Origin: an alpha proteobacterium U9-1i
GTDB lineage: Bacteria > Pseudomonadota > Alphaproteobacteria > Caulobacterales > Aquidulcibacteraceae
DNA length: 64,000 nt
Assembly (NCBI GenBank): GCA_000974665.1
Contig: BBSY01000005.1
Location: 62,001-126,000, forward strand
Direction of reading: 5' to 3'
The translations under genes and the position numbers were made by a program. Positions 11,005 to 62,938 of the stretch are shown in pieces. The notes below the pieces were generated by a model. It saw only the letters and a list, made by a program, of their open reading frames with translations. It was not told where the DNA came from and did no database searches. Numbering within the stretch: the first letter of the stretch is position 1; each line of letters opens with the position of its first letter.

Positions 11005-11113
11005 GAGGACCGCCGGCTTCCAGCCGGCATCTGGCTTGGACGCTAGTTAAGTTGACCCGCAATCCAACTCCAAACCCCGCGCGGAAGATGCCGGCTGGAA
11101 GCCGGCGGTCCTC
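11005..11113. repeat. perfect 28-bp inverted repeat with 53-bp centre
   Basis: The arms 11005-11032 and 11086-11113 are exact reverse complements over 28 bases. Each arm also contains two copies of the self-complementary GCCGGC, so each can fold alone. The 53-bp centre has no gene. It lies 7 nt after the stop of the 83-residue gene. On either strand there is no clear T-run after the structure, so a simple terminator is less likely than a small mobile repeat or a RIP-like element. I saw no other copy in the window. Confidence 0.85.
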
Positions 11114-12970: not shown

Positions 12971-13470
12971 GCGCTGGCGAACACCGCGCGTGGCAGGCCT
13001 TGCGCTTGCTGAGAAACGAAGGCGTACACGTCGTGCGCCAACACAAGATTGGACGCTACACCGTGGACTTCGCCATTCGCCGCGCATGCGTTGCTATCGA
13101 GATTGATGGCGGTGTCCACGATATGGAGGGCCGCGCTGAATACGACGCGATGCGCCAAACTCATCTGGAGAACATCGGCTGGTCCTTCGTACGCTTCCGC
13201 TCCGAAGAAACCCACGACGCGAAGGCAATCATCGACAGAGTGCGTGCCGCGCTCCCCCTCCCCTTGAGGGGAGGGGGCAGGGGGCGGGGTGATGCGTCAG
13301 CGATTGAAGATTCGCGTTCAGCGCAGCTCGAAACCGGACATGCGAGCGCATCACCCCACCCCCGGCCCCCTCCCCTCGCGGGGAGGGGGAGTTCCCTCAA
13401 CGCCGCACCCGCGCAAATCGCAAATTGCCGTCGCGTGCAAAGCGATGAGTCTGCGCGCGTCTCTCGTTGA
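12967..13470 (+). CDS. DUF559 domain protein (Vsr-like endonuclease fold) with repeat-derived tail
   Basis: A 167-residue frame starting with a GTG that overlaps the lgt stop. Residues about 5-92 are a DUF559 domain: AWQALRLLRNEGVHVVRQHKIGRYTVDFAI, CVAIEIDGGVHD and a WSFVRFRSEE strand, the restriction-endonuclease-like core with D/E-x-D type residues (VDF, EID). Such genes are common single inserts beside housekeeping genes; function is unknown. From residue 96 to about 142 the frame is encoded by a CTCCCC/GGGGAG inverted repeat and so is not family sequence. The frame ends 26 nt inside midA. The original gene probably ended near residue 95 before the repeat arrived. Confidence 0.75.
   Translation: MSAGEHRAWQALRLLRNEGVHVVRQHKIGRYTVDFAIRRACVAIEIDGGVHDMEGRAEYDAMRQTHLENIGWSFVRFRSEETHDAKAIIDRVRAALPLPLRGGGRGRGDASAIEDSRSAQLETGHASASPHPRPPPLAGRGSSLNAAPAQIANCRRVQSDESARVSR
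13252..13391. repeat. inverted pair of CTCCCC/GGGGAG repeats
   Basis: Arms 13252-13296 and 13347-13391 are inverted copies of a 45-base unit, agreeing at 41 positions. Each unit begins with its own hairpin (CTCCCCTTGAGGGGAG in the left arm, CTCCCCTCGCGGGGAG in the right) followed by a G-rich tail and GTGATGCG. This is the organism's intergenic palindromic repeat family, seen again near 34.5, 37.8 and 63.0 kb. Here it falls inside the DUF559 frame and just before midA. Confidence 0.85.
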
Positions 13471-34506: not shown

Positions 34507-34620
34507 CTCCCCCGTTTACGGGGGAGCTGTCAGCGTGCAAAGCACGATGAGTGAGGGGGCAACGCGTTCCATCCCCCTCCGTCGCCAACGGCGACACCTC
34601 CCCCGCTTCGCGAGGGAGGA
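34507..34620. repeat. CTCCCC/GGGGAG intergenic repeat pair
   Basis: From CTCCCCCGTTTACGGGGGAG at 34507 to the hairpin CCTCCCCCGCTTCGCGAGGGAGG-like element near 34620 lie two units of the short palindromic family, with CAGCGTGCAAAGCACGATGA and GTCGCCAACGGCGACA hairpins between them. It fills the gap between the inositol-monophosphatase gene and the GPH transporter, and pushes the transporter's start just downstream of it. Confidence 0.75.
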
Positions 34621-34637
34621 CAAAGAACGGAGGCGGC

Positions 34638-36020
34638 GTGGCGAATTCAAACGCAGGCGAGCGTAAAGTTTCCGCCTGGGAAATCGTCGCCTTCGCGGCG
34701 CCTGCGGCGCCGTTGCTGGCGCTGACGCTGCCGACGGTCATTTTCCTGCCGCCGCACTTCGCTGAACATCTCGGCATACCACTTTGGGCGGTGTCAGCGA
34801 TCTTCTTGGGCGCTCGGCTGCTCGACATCGTTTTCGATCCGATGGTCGGCGGCATTCAGGACCGCACCGAGCACGCATGGGGCCGCCGCCGTTTCTGGCT
34901 GGCGGCGACTTGCCTGCCGCTGATGGTGCTTGTGTGGATCACGTTCCTCGGGCTGCAGCCTGGCGTCAGCATCGCCGCAGCGTTGGCGACGATCCTTGTC
35001 CTCTACACGGTGTTTGCGGCGATGATGGTGGCGCATCTGGGTTGGGCGGGCGAATTGGTGCCGACCTATCACGGCCGCACGCATGTGCTTGGCGCCGTGC
35101 AAGTAGCGAGCTTGGTTGGACAAACGATCATGCTCGTGCTCGCCGGCGTTGTCGTGCAAGGCTTCGGCGGCTCGAACGCCGACGCGGTGCACGCCATGGG
35201 CTGGACGGTGCTATTTCTGTTGCCGGCGACGACGCTTCTGGCGGTGTTGTTCGTGCGCGAGGAGCAGCGGCCGCCGCAACCGCACCTCGGCCTGATGGAT
35301 TCAATCAAGGCGCTGCTCGCCAATCGCTCGGCGCAGCGTGTGCTGTTGCCGGACCTGTTGCTGGGGATCGCGCAAGGCGTATCGGGCGGATTGTTTCTGT
35401 TCTTTTTCCAGTTCGTCCTCGGCTTTGAGCGCGAGTCGCAGACGTTGCTGGCGATGTACTTCCTCGCGGGTCTCGCCGGCGTGCCAATCTGGTGGATCGC
35501 CGCGCGCAAGATCGGCAAGCATCGCGCGTTGCAGGCCGCGTTTATCTATTCGGCGCTGACACTTGCTCTATTGCCGATTATGCCAGCGCAAGAATTCTGG
35601 ATCGTTGGGCCGTTCATGGCGCTGGCAGGTCTGGCGCAGGGCGGTGGCACGCTGCTGACGCGATCCTTGATGGCCGACGTTGTGGACGAGGACGAAGTGA
35701 ACACCGGCGCGCGGCGTTCAGGGCTCTATTTCGGGCTGCTCCTCACGACGTCAAAACTCGGTATCGCCGCCGGGCCGATCACCTACGCCATCCTCGGTGC
35801 TGTTGGGTTTGTCGCCTCGCAAGGCGCAGACAACAGCGCGCAAGCGCTCGGCACATTGACCGCCCTGTTCATCGGCGTGCCCGTAACGCTCAACGTGCTC
35901 GCGGCTTTGTCTCTGCGCAATTATCCGCTGGATGAAGCGCGTCAAGCCGCGCTGGCGGCGGCCATCGCCGAGCGCCAATCGGCGAACAGCGAGAACACCT
36001 TGGGGCCATCCACCAAATAG
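34638..36020 (+). CDS. GPH-family MFS transporter (glycoside/pentoside/hexuronide:cation symporter-like)
   Basis: A 460-residue transporter starting at GTG 34638, preceded by ACGGAGG; the open frame upstream of it is the intergenic repeat. Helix 1 has AFAAPAAPLLALTLPTVIFLPP and the family loop is FDPMVGGIQDRTEHAWGRRRFW (about residues 64-85), a hallmark of GPH symporters. Twelve hydrophobic helices can be traced; a conserved RRSGLYFGL segment occurs near residue 365. Sugar or related uptake is expected; the substrate is unknown. Its 3' end overlaps the convergent glycosyltransferase by 79 nt. Confidence 0.84.
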   Translation: MANSNAGERKVSAWEIVAFAAPAAPLLALTLPTVIFLPPHFAEHLGIPLWAVSAIFLGARLLDIVFDPMVGGIQDRTEHAWGRRRFWLAATCLPLMVLVWITFLGLQPGVSIAAALATILVLYTVFAAMMVAHLGWAGELVPTYHGRTHVLGAVQVASLVGQTIMLVLAGVVVQGFGGSNADAVHAMGWTVLFLLPATTLLAVLFVREEQRPPQPHLGLMDSIKALLANRSAQRVLLPDLLLGIAQGVSGGLFLFFFQFVLGFERESQTLLAMYFLAGLAGVPIWWIAARKIGKHRALQAAFIYSALTLALLPIMPAQEFWIVGPFMALAGLAQGGGTLLTRSLMADVVDEDEVNTGARRSGLYFGLLLTTSKLGIAAGPITYAILGAVGFVASQGADNSAQALGTLTALFIGVPVTLNVLAALSLRNYPLDEARQAALAAAIAERQSANSENTLGPSTK

Positions 36021-36737: not shown

Positions 36738-38612
36738 TTAACCGTTGCGCCGGGCCCGCCGATGCAGGAACCGGGCCGGATCGATCGCATCAAGCGCCGG
36801 CCCAGACAGCGCTTGAGGTGTAGCGCAGAGGAGCGACGCGATTGTCTCTCCGAGCAGCGGCGCAAGCGTCAGTCCACGCGCACCTAAACCACCGATAACG
36901 TAAACGCCCTCATGGCGTGCGTTAGGCCCGCGTTCAGCATCCGGCAGCGCGCCGGCGATCGGTGCACGATCCTGCGTCGTGGCGCGAAACGCAGCGCGGG
37001 AGCGCAGAGTTGACGCATCAAGCGACGCGGCGACATCGGGCGCGAGCTTCGCCAAAGCGGCAAGATTTTCGGCGCGGCTGCTTTTGCCATCCACACTCGC
37101 TTCGGCCTTGTCGAATGTCGCGCCGAACATTACGCCGCCGCCGAACGGTGCGAGATAATTGCCTTGGGTGATCGCATGTTTGGGCTCGGCGCCCGCGCCC
37201 CATTCGATTTGCCCGCGCGACAGTTCGATCGGCAGGAATGCGGCCGGACGAAACGCGCCCAGCCCAGCGCCACACGCGAGCACCACCGCATCCGCCTTCA
37301 ATCGCGCGCGACCGTCAGGCGCGCGAAGGAGCCAGGCGTCCCCGGCCGGTTCGATCGCGGAAATTTCCGCCTCCAGCAACAGCTCAGCGCCCGCCAGCAT
37401 CCGTTCGAGCGCCGCGACCGGCCGCACGAGGCCGGCGCGCGGATGAAACGCTGCGCCGTCAGCTCGGGCGCCGAACCAATCGGCCGGCAGCGGCGGATCA
37501 TTCAGAAGATCTGCGAGCGCGTCGGCGCTATTGGCGCGCGTGCGTTCCTCGACGCCACAGCCATCGAGTACGCCAAGCTTTTCGTAAGTGGCGACCGCGT
37601 CGAGGTACGCAGCCAGAAACACCTCGGCTAACGGCCCGCCGCGATCGAGGCGCGGCATGATCAGGCCTGCCGGATTGCCGCTCGCCCCCGCCCCCAGCGC
37701 CGGGGCAGCGTCGAGCACAATGGTTTCCAGGCCGCGCCGGGTGAGCGCCGCCGCAGTCGCTGCGCCGGCGATTCCAGCGCCGAGGATAGCGACGCGGGAA
37801 GCCGACGCTCTCCCTCCACGCGCGGGGGAGGTGCTGAGCGTAGCGAAGCGGAGGGGGAAGGCCGCAGCGCCGCCGCCGTCGTCTGCGGCGGCGCCCCTTT
37901 CGCGAGCAGCGGAGGAAAAGGTTGCCTCCAGCCGTTCGCGTTTGCGCCCGAAGCCCGGCTTCTTCTCCACAGCAAATCCTGCCGCTTCGAGGCCTCTGCG
38001 GACTTCCCCGGCCACGGTGAACGTCGCCGCGCGCGCGCCCGGCGCTGAAAGCGCGGCGATTCGCTTGAACACGTCCGGGCTCCACATCGCCGCGTTCCGC
38101 GCCGGTGCGAAGCCGTCGAGAAACCAAGCATCGAACTTGCCTCGAAGGCCGGCGAGCACGCGCTCGGCATCGCCCACGTGAATGGTCAGCGAGAACCCAT
38201 CCTCCGGGAACCAAAGGCGTTGCGGCCCGAAAGCGCGCACCGGCCAGCGCGCGAGCAGGCGCGCGGCGAGGTCCGCCACCTCCGGGAAATGCGCGAGCGC
38301 ACGCGCCGCATCCTGCTTTGCGAGAGGGAATGCCTCGATAGAGGAGATATGCAAATTTGCGCCGGGCGAATGTGTTGCGCGCCAAGCACGCCATGCAGCC
38401 AAAACATTCAATCCGCTGCCAAATCCCAGCTCGCAGAGCGCGAAACTTGGACGCCCGGCCCATGCGCTAGGAAGACCACAGCCGGCTAGGAATACCGCCT
38501 CGCTTTCGGCCAGACCGCCTTCGCGAGAAAAGTAGACATCGTCGAACGCCGTCGCCTTGGGGGTTCCGTCATCGCTCCAAACGAGCGTGGGTTGGGGTGG
38601 CAAGCGCGGCAT
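36738..38612 (-). CDS. mnmC: bifunctional tRNA mnm5s2U methyltransferase/oxidoreductase MnmC
   Basis: A 624-residue two-domain enzyme from ATG 38612. The N-terminal MnmD methyltransferase has DDVYFSREGGLAESEAVFL, SAM-binding CELGFGSGLNVLAAW (about 59-73) and WFLDGFAPARNAAMW. The C-terminal FAD oxidase (cmnm5 to nm5) has VAILGAGIAGAATAAALTRRG near 274 and VYVIGGLGARGLTLAPLLG near 583. Together they make mnm5s2U34 of glutamate/lysine/glutamine tRNAs. The linker (about residues 251-268) is encoded by an in-frame copy of the organism's intergenic repeat, and both domains remain intact. It is followed by the glycosyltransferase and preceded by a terminator. Confidence 0.93.
   Translation of the reverse strand: MPRLPPQPTLVWSDDGTPKATAFDDVYFSREGGLAESEAVFLAGCGLPSAWAGRPSFALCELGFGSGLNVLAAWRAWRATHSPGANLHISSIEAFPLAKQDAARALAHFPEVADLAARLLARWPVRAFGPQRLWFPEDGFSLTIHVGDAERVLAGLRGKFDAWFLDGFAPARNAAMWSPDVFKRIAALSAPGARAATFTVAGEVRRGLEAAGFAVEKKPGFGRKRERLEATFSSAARERGAAADDGGGAAAFPLRFATLSTSPARGGRASASRVAILGAGIAGAATAAALTRRGLETIVLDAAPALGAGASGNPAGLIMPRLDRGGPLAEVFLAAYLDAVATYEKLGVLDGCGVEERTRANSADALADLLNDPPLPADWFGARADGAAFHPRAGLVRPVAALERMLAGAELLLEAEISAIEPAGDAWLLRAPDGRARLKADAVVLACGAGLGAFRPAAFLPIELSRGQIEWGAGAEPKHAITQGNYLAPFGGGVMFGATFDKAEASVDGKSSRAENLAALAKLAPDVAASLDASTLRSRAAFRATTQDRAPIAGALPDAERGPNARHEGVYVIGGLGARGLTLAPLLGETIASLLCATPQALSGPALDAIDPARFLHRRARRNG
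37809..37860. repeat. intergenic-type hairpin repeat inserted in the mnmC linker
   Basis: The stretch carries a GGGGGAGGTGCTGAGCGTAG core with CTCCCTCC arms and a G-rich GGAGGGGGAAG tail, the same layout as the repeats near 13.3, 34.5 and 63.0 kb (hairpin, short GC-spacer with GCGTAGCGAAGC, then GAGGGGG). It lies exactly between the two MnmC domains and keeps the reading frame. Confidence 0.65.
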
Positions 38613-38640
38613 GGGCGCGGTTGAACATTGGGCCCGCCCC

Positions 38641-38672
38641 AAAAGCAAACGAGCCGCCCTTTCGGGCGGCTC
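38641..38672 (-). terminator. intrinsic terminator of the Ala/Pro-rich lipoprotein gene
   Basis: On the minus strand GAGCCGCCC pairs with GGGCGGCTC (9 bp, 38672 to 38651, four-base loop) and is followed by GTTTGCTTTT. It lies 28 nt after the stop at 38700 and 29 nt before mnmC. Confidence 0.8.
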
Positions 38673-38699: not shown

Positions 38700-38924
38700 T
38701 TACGGATGGGCCGGAGCAGCAGCCGGATCAGCCGGAGCAGCAGCCGGGTCGGCCGGAGCCGCCGCCGGATCGACCACAGCAGCCGGATCAGCCGCCGGCT
38801 CAGCCGGAGCAGCTTCTTCGACCGCAGCAGGTTCTTCCACCGTCGTCGTTTGGCCGCAGGCCGCGACGCCGAAGGCGAGAACGGCCGCCGCAGCAGCGGC
38901 GAAGCCCAACTTACGCATGTTCAT
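38700..38924 (-). CDS. small lipoprotein with alanine/proline/aspartate repeats
   Basis: A 74-residue protein; ATG at 38924 or 38918. The signal peptide RKLGFAAAAAAVLAFGVAAC ends in a lipobox (VAAC), so the mature protein is lipidated at that cysteine. The remainder is low complexity: TTTVEEPAAVEEAA, then DPAAAPADPAAAPADPAAAP, a repeat of AADP units encoded by tandem GGAGCAGCAGCCGGATCAG-like DNA units. It resembles proline/alanine-rich envelope tethers but has no recognised domain. A terminator follows. Confidence 0.7.
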   Translation of the reverse strand: MNMRKLGFAAAAAAVLAFGVAACGQTTTVEEPAAVEEAAPAEPAADPAAVVDPAAAPADPAAAPADPAAAPAHP

Positions 38925-39081
38925 AGGTTGCACCCCTCGTCTCAACGTCGAGGCAATCCTCAACGCAGGCGGCGACTCCCATGCCAAGGATTAACTACAT
39001 TGGCAAGCCCACTAGGCTTCCAGGGGCATCCGTTTCTGCATAGGGCGGAATCGTTTCCGTCACCCTGCCCGAGCGGAATTG

Positions 39082-45100: not shown

Positions 45101-45126
45101 CTCCACCTAACAACACCCGACGACGT

Positions 45127-45229
45127 CCGTCATCCCGGACGCGCGGAGCGCGATCCGGAACCCAGGGGCAAACACACAGCCATGTGATCTCTGGATCCCG
45201 GCTCTCCCTTCGGTCGGCCAGGATGACGG
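45127..45229. repeat. CCGTCATCCCGG ... ATGACGG palindromic intergenic repeat, copy 1
   Basis: The unit begins CCGTCATCCCGGACGCGCGG and closes with CTTCGGTCGGCCAGGATGACGG, so the ends are inverted complements, with GGATCCCGGCTCTCCCTTCGG internally. A second copy at 62835-62938 is closely similar along its whole length. It sits between gapR and the next gene. This is a typical alphaproteobacterial intergenic repeat. Confidence 0.85.
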
Positions 45230-62789: not shown

Positions 62790-62834
62790 GTAGCTCGTCG
62801 CCCGGAGCGGACATGCGCTTTCCAACAACTAAGT

Positions 62835-62938
62835 CCGTCATCCCGGACACGCGGAGCGTGATCCGGGACCCAGTGGCAAACGACGAACCCTTCGATCCCC
62901 TGGGTCCCGGCTCTCCCTTCGGTCGGCCGGGATGACGG
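62835..62938. repeat. CCGTCATCCCGG ... GGGATGACGG palindromic intergenic repeat, copy 2
   Basis: Second copy of the unit seen at 45127-45229: CCGTCATCCCGGACACGCGG opens it and CGGCCGGGATGACGG closes it. It lies in the 349-nt gene-free stretch between 62790 and 63138, which is otherwise filled by the repeat at 62980-63131; I see no gene there. Confidence 0.85.

Follow-up and report, generated by a model that had tools for sequence, protein, structure and literature searches.

The window, by which we mean the whole stretch of 64,000 nucleotides analysed here, carries on its minus strand the gene mnmC (36738-38648), encoding the bifunctional methyltransferase/oxidase of the tRNA wobble uridine. 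The ORF list gives a protein of 636 residues from a TTG start; the true start may lie downstream, as Met13 lines up with the starts of related proteins. Matches to MnmC in several relatives begin upstream of the likely start, with a stop codon there. The MnmC2 methyltransferase domain (37917-38558, minus strand, residues 31-244) scores 225.9 bits against NF033855 (cut-off 136), and the MnmC1 FAD oxidase domain (36747-37796, minus strand, residues 285-634) scores 225.4 bits against TIGR03197 (cut-off 174.2), so that a single chain holds both domains of a bifunctional MnmC, each above its own cut-off. In the same NCBIfam profile search the full-length model NF002480 reaches 511 bits, below its cut-off of 540. 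The identification is also supported by Pfam families PF05430 and PF01266 and by PDB entries 3pvc and 3ps9. An AlphaFold model built with 21 aligned sequences has a pTM of 0.89; averaged over ten-residue blocks, pLDDT is mostly above 85 in both domains, and the three blocks of residues 251-280 average 43-50. Profile scores and model thus bear out the initial annotation, which took both domains to be intact. Between them lies the interdomain linker (37797-37916, minus strand, residues 245-284). Beside the gene, at 38700-38987, is a small ORF rich in Ala and Pro; by eye its product resembles a lipoprotein, and it contains imperfect tandem repeats.

Within the linker, at 37810-37857, we find a copy of a repeat, hereafter family A, to which no strand is assigned and which on the minus strand encodes approximately residues 264-280 (FPLRFATLSTSPARGGR) according to the codon map. 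The copy is read in frame and free of stops, with the repeat codons spanning 37859 down to 37809. Seven other places in the same 4.05-Mb genome match it (E 3.4e-12 to 1.3e-4), making family A a dispersed repeat that occupies eight places, the window copy included, at multiple unrelated loci. Inside the window it stands alone: no second clear copy was found in the 64 kb, the next best match reaching 27.4 bits and pattern searches matching 37810-37857 only, so its membership of the family rests on the whole-genome matches. Of the seven matches, two are in-frame segments of PriA and ThiC; a pattern search turned up one more copy, in LeuRS. In all three proteins family A forms inverted pairs, and the MnmC unit is therefore best viewed as a single unit or half-pair. 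The exact boundaries of the insertion are blurred because the linker around it has diverged.

These observations uphold the central claim of the initial annotation, that a repeat is translated in frame as the linker of MnmC: it lies between the two domains, contains no stop and has copies elsewhere in the genome. Its details need correction. The repeat had been assigned to residues 251-268, numbers that are about 13 too low on the codon map. It had also been described as a palindrome at 37809-37860; there is a repeat at 37810-37857 with seven further genomic matches, but the lone copy folds no better than its shuffles (RNA z 0.13; DNA z -0.18), and neither does the whole linker region 37798-37922 (z -0.93). 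Finally, it had been called a copy of an intergenic hairpin family. The sequence is indeed repeated in the genome, but it is not simply intergenic, given the in-frame copies in PriA, ThiC and LeuRS, and two other hairpins of the window (13252-13391 and 34597-34619) do not clearly belong to the family. The former is a 140-bp inverted repeat of the CTCCCC/GGGGAG type, whose 45-nt arms are 91% complementary; the latter, a hairpin of CTCCC...GGGAGG form, lies close to the start of ORF 34551-36020, whose true start may be downstream.

The linker holds a second GC-rich inverted repeat, at 37867-37895 (no strand assigned; residues ~252-261), with an RNA fold z of -2.06 and 8 of 200 shuffles folding as well. 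It had no other match in its own genome at E<=0.01 among the 30 candidates scored out of 92, and over the genus it matched nothing besides itself above 41 bits; it represents no recognised repeat family. Elsewhere in the window, 45120-45229 and 62828-62938 are two copies of a GTCATCCCGG-type palindromic repeat, two parts of which are 89% and 95% alike, and 11005-11113 contains two 28-nt arms with GCCGGC that are 100% complementary and bear a weak likeness (25.6 bits) to half of family C, described below.

We compared the locus across 30 genomes of the same genus, which is probably Terricaulis (about 2-4 Mb each, mostly drafts; genomes are labelled G and loci L, G000 being the window genome). 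MnmC was found in 29 of them, G018 (82% complete) giving no match; 28 linkers could be read fully, all of them in frame, and that of G007 in part, up to a contig end. Repeats of four families, A-D, recur in these linkers. Eight of the 29 contain a recognised repeat: family A in G000, B-type inserts in G011, G003, G006 and G021, family D in G020, and family C in G019 (on two contigs, L060 and L141) and in G007 (at the contig edge). Two more contain family C fragments (G025 and, weakly, G028), and in 19 no repeat was recognised. Matches occur in at least 15 (A), 23 (B), 29 (C) and 20 (D) of the 30 genomes, the copy counts of all four families being lower bounds, since in some genomes only 29-31 of the candidates were scored. 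For the clear MnmC inserts, the best match at a locus elsewhere is 43-126 nt long and 86-100% identical. G021 (L038) has the least secure of the eight, with 52.7 bits against B copies (41 nt, 88%) and less than 35 bits against the B seed; a further linker match, in L046, is weak (35.6 bits) and short or patchy. With one way of setting the boundaries, the window's linker measures 135 nt, compared with 51-99 nt in 17 and 120-123 nt in two of the 19 repeat-free linkers of the genus. By another boundary measure, L039 and L044 have long linkers (108 and 111 nt) with no recognised repeat, which possibly hold decayed repeats or families not yet recognised. Two pairs of linkers are identical (L076 and L062, G023; L067 and L040, G011). 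In L062 the oxidase half of MnmC looks frame-shifted, in pieces with stops, through sequence error or decay.

Outside the genus the inserts disappear. Of the 26 MnmC linkers read in other genera of the family, 36-75 nt long, not one matches families A-D at E<=1e-3 (25 of 30 genomes sampled, G040 contributing two loci; G039, G047, G048, G050 and G051 are left out). The inserts therefore most probably originated within the genus. An alignment with relatives had been proposed as the check on the insertion, and the segment is absent from all 26. The opposite outcome, a linker conserved as protein, is not what we see, since linker lengths within the genus vary from 13 residues upwards and the outgroup lacks the segment. 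The matches are also specific to the linker. None of 1,450 dinucleotide shuffles of the linkers reaches 35 bits, and in 52,230 bases of MnmC coding sequence from 28 loci the eight matches of at least 40 bits, in seven loci, all fall in the linker; four of these seven loci supplied seeds, so in their case it is copies elsewhere that count as evidence. By interpolation L041 (position 234) and L048 (239) fall just before the linker; the direct reading of the linkers places both, together with L061, within it. An Rfam search of four insert loci (L001, L142, L172 and L202) gave four weak matches, all under the gathering cut-off.

To count insertion events we placed the linker states on a tree of both MnmC domains minus the linker (29 genus rows), a quick tree with several weak branches. 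The states none, A, B, C and D require at least nine changes over the 29 rows, or at least seven once L052, a fragment row, and L065, a cut row, are removed; bare presence or absence requires at least six, and family B alone four. These counts include possible losses, the weak G028 fragment is scored as none, and two C rows rest on half the protein each (L060 on the oxidase only, L065 on the methyltransferase only). The sister genomes G020 and G006 (99% SH-aLRT), whose flanking alignments show 93.0% and 90.2% identity, differ at one joint, G020 having D and G006 having B. Together the comparisons support the reading that mobile palindromes would have landed repeatedly, and in frame, in the joint of one enzyme within one genus.

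MnmC is one of several linkers that are hit in this way. Among 112 repeat places in the sampled loci, 42 lie in a stop-free stretch with at least 60 residues on each side, giving 34 distinct ORFs; the 112 are mostly best-scoring loci, some counted two or three times by overlap and one being MnmC itself (L198), so 42 of 112 is no genome-wide rate. Proteins were named from their Pfam domains, with 30 of the 34 ORFs scanned (L146, L147, L184 and L198 left out). In 14 of the 30 the repeat lies between or inside Pfam domains, in five it has a domain on one side (L163, L164, L175, L190 and L218), and 11 have no family. In the window genome, family A is in frame in PriA, LeuRS and ThiC (L003, L021 and L008): a pair of A copies sits between the 3' DNA-binding and helicase domains of PriA, and another before the editing domain of LeuRS. 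In L008 and L002 two A copies stand back to back. Family B occurs in an Lhr-type helicase, a chromate transporter, a pyruvate dehydrogenase E1 beta-like protein, UvrC and, twice each, PolA and PutA; family C occurs in an AMP-binding enzyme, a ThiF protein and a class-III aminotransferase. Repeats also lie inside domains, namely in UvrC, ThiF, AMP-binding and Aminotran_3.

PolA and PutA repeat the pattern seen in MnmC. At 35 bits, 6 of 26 PolA and 5 of 27 PutA linkers match, as against 8 of 28 MnmC linkers, with B repeats in the interdomain linkers of PolA (L230, L231, L233-L235) and PutA (L260, L275, L276, L280, L282); PolA L232 (37.4 bits) and L238 (39.2 bits) and PutA L261 (38.3 bits) are weak cases. 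Short D and C matches outside the linkers of L230, L275 and L282 were excluded from the count. With hand-scored cases placed on the MnmC tree, PolA, with inserts in 7 of 27 rows, and PutA, with inserts in 6 of 22, each require at least four changes. A hot spot confined to MnmC was accordingly dropped as an explanation.

The families differ in how they can be read and how they fold. Frame +0 of family B, an element of about 125 nt, is stop-free in all seven genic and all 16 other near-full copies, the next best frame (-2, on the opposite strand) being open in 14 of the 16; the copies are related and hence not independent, and the other copies may include genic ones. On inspection of the encoded peptides, the eight Pfam-supported B insertions and the MnmC inserts L040, L041 and L061 are read in the orientation of frame +0 and keep to that frame over at least their second half; L156 and L169 differ in how the first half of B is read. 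For family A, five of the six frames are usually open (6 copies), and the frame therefore says little, although MnmC and PriA read it in the same one (FPLRFATLSTSPARGG and PPLRFASLSTSPASGG). Strong folding is seen for the seeds of B, C and D (z -5.6, -11.3 and -10.5), against a z of -0.18 for the lone window copy of A.

A possible source of mobility is found for one family. Genes for Y1-transposases of the RAYT type (PF01797) are present in 16 of the 30 genomes, with one in the window genome. The stretches around 30 of 34 RAYT matches, 74,260 b in all, contain 28 matches to families A-D, of which 27 are C; the PolA and PutA flanks of the same genomes, used as a control, contain 6 C matches and 9 A-D matches in 89,900 b, and a looser control including genomes without RAYT matches contains 12 matches in 162,400 b. 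An A-D match occurs in 14 of the 30 stretches and C in 13. Nine RAYT genes have C on both sides (L291, L295, L299, L301, L306, L308, L310, L313 and L315): seven between inverted half-hairpins, one between full palindromes and one with both copies in the same direction. Placed in this manner, family C has the look of a non-autonomous element derived from the end sequences of RAYT transposon-like genes. Neither A nor B was found at 38 bits in the 30 stretches, and the 2.7-kb stretch around the RAYT gene of the window genome (L298) holds no A-D copy at that threshold. The initial annotation's word 'selfish' is thus supported for family C by the RAYT flanks; for family A, the window's own, the 30 stretches gave no link to a transposase.

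The locus is very probably explained by tolerated in-frame insertion of mobile repeats into variable linkers, MnmC representing one event of a recurrent process. A family A repeat would have inserted into the non-conserved mnmC linker in an ancestor of the window species; with the frame kept and no stop introduced, it would be translated as about 17 residues of flexible linker, leaving the domains intact. At least four repeat families would keep landing in the linkers and loops of proteins of this genus. Insertion may be random or weakly targeted, and those insertions that break a frame or a fold would be lost by purifying selection, so that repeats remain in linkers and loops. The insertions presumably occurred by transposition, for which the RAYT-flanking ends provide support in the case of family C; among the linkers read, no empty site turned up within one and the same species. 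To judge by its sequence, MnmC with the insert should be enzymatically active, and we infer that the insert is retained by tolerance rather than benefit: the absence of extra folding in the window copy and the many insert-free relatives argue against a need for it. Tolerated insertion is, in our assessment, the best reading over benefit.

Existing palindromes might instead act as preferred targets, with later repeats replacing the first or nesting in it. The occurrence of different families at one site in sister species would fit such targeting, as would the back-to-back A copies in L008 and L002 and the linker of L041, in which, by inspection, an extra palindromic stretch lies within the B element as if one repeat had landed in another. 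Yet no remnant of one family within another could be demonstrated in the sister pair G020/G006, and most genus rows hold one family or none. We consider preferential targeting unlikely, while noting that it is compatible with tolerated insertion and does not exclude it.

Two further accounts give the inserts a use. On the broader one, mobile palindromes are a renewable source of linkers, preadapted by one stop-free frame, a fixed orientation and a hairpin, and favoured insertions, acting through linker properties or co-translational pausing, successively renew the linkers of MnmC, PolA and PutA; we think this quite improbable. On the narrower one, which we judge marginally less probable still, inserts are kept under positive selection as helpful, through linker length or charge or through an mRNA hairpin that slows ribosomes between the domains. 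Recurrence at the same site in MnmC, PolA and PutA, the strong hairpins of the B, C and D seeds, and the shared orientation and frame of the B insertions, despite frame -2 being open in 14 of 16 other copies, would all fit a benefit. The shared frame could, however, reflect the one frame of B that is always open (16 of 16) and the shared ancestry of some insertions. Against benefit stand also the 19 of 29 genus linkers with no recognised repeat and the window copy of A, which folds no better than shuffles. Repeats within the domains of UvrC, ThiF, AMP-binding and Aminotran_3 proteins likewise count against it; tolerance alone predicts linkers. Mere resemblance between GC-rich Ala/Pro/Gly linkers and GC-rich palindromes, for which the GC-rich genome, the low-complexity linkers, the familyless hairpin at 37867-37895 and the short or patchy weakest cases (L046, PolA L232 and L238, PutA L261) might be cited, is scarcely credible when clear inserts match elsewhere over 43-126 nt at 86-100% and no shuffle out of 1,450 reaches 35 bits. 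That MnmC has long contained the segment as a conserved part, from which other loci copied it, is practically untenable: nothing turned up in favour of this idea, 26 of 26 linkers in other genera and 19 of 29 in the genus have no match and the E. coli linker is among the most divergent segments of the protein, according to the accessible part of PMC3648344.

Tolerated insertion places the locus beside several known systems. The Rickettsia palindromic elements (RPEs) are palindromic families found in frame in unrelated housekeeping proteins, the encoded peptide being conserved, as the accessible part of PMC10969869 describes them. The repeats here resemble RPEs by description, as palindromic repeats in frame in unrelated proteins, with frame +0 of B stop-free in all 16 other copies: such in-frame dispersed palindromes occur in conserved proteins in the window genome (MnmC, PriA, LeuRS and ThiC) and, in others, in its relatives. 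The setting differs from that of RPEs in that the host has a GC-rich genome of 4 Mb, and presumably belongs to a free-living genus, within which four families have reached the same linker.

Intragenic REPs offer a second comparison. In the accessible parts of PMC3733652 they are reported in DNA-repair and tRNA-related genes, two Xanthomonas species having different REPs at roughly one position of recB, and RAYT-like genes flanked by TIRs are described there. PolA, UvrC, PriA and LeuRS carry repeats here, and the C sequences flanking RAYT genes recall those TIR-flanked genes. On inspection, the GTAG/CGTC end tag of REPs is absent from the ends of the A copies and of C: a GTAG within the window copy of A is GAAG in most aligned A copies, and the CGTC of C is internal rather than terminal. 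Family B, at about 125 nt, is also longer than the 20-40 bp given for REPs in those parts of PMC3733652, whose REP account does not include several families at one linker within one genus, as found here. Bacterial MITEs are a third comparison. QMITE of Coxiella, ERIC and others are non-autonomous palindromic repeats, some of them in frame in ORFs, according to the accessible parts of PMC5896051 and PMC10969869, and the in-frame palindromic repeats described here are like them. For QMITE, the cases given there comprise one C-terminal extension along with insertions into hypothetical proteins, whereas here interdomain linkers of conserved enzymes are hit, and recurrently. Among titles and the beginnings of abstracts, with few subscription papers covered, none dealt with repeats in the linker of MnmC or in proteins of Terricaulis.

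Repeat DNA can thus sit unnoticed within core enzymes, and the genus provides natural linker-length variants of a bifunctional tRNA-modifying enzyme. It also supplies a case outside Rickettsia with enough related species for events to be counted, for filled and empty linkers to be compared in sisters, and for tolerance to be tested against benefit. The precedent lies in the RPEs and intragenic REPs; what is new is the GC-rich alphaproteobacterial setting, the arrival of four families at one linker, and independent events that can be counted.
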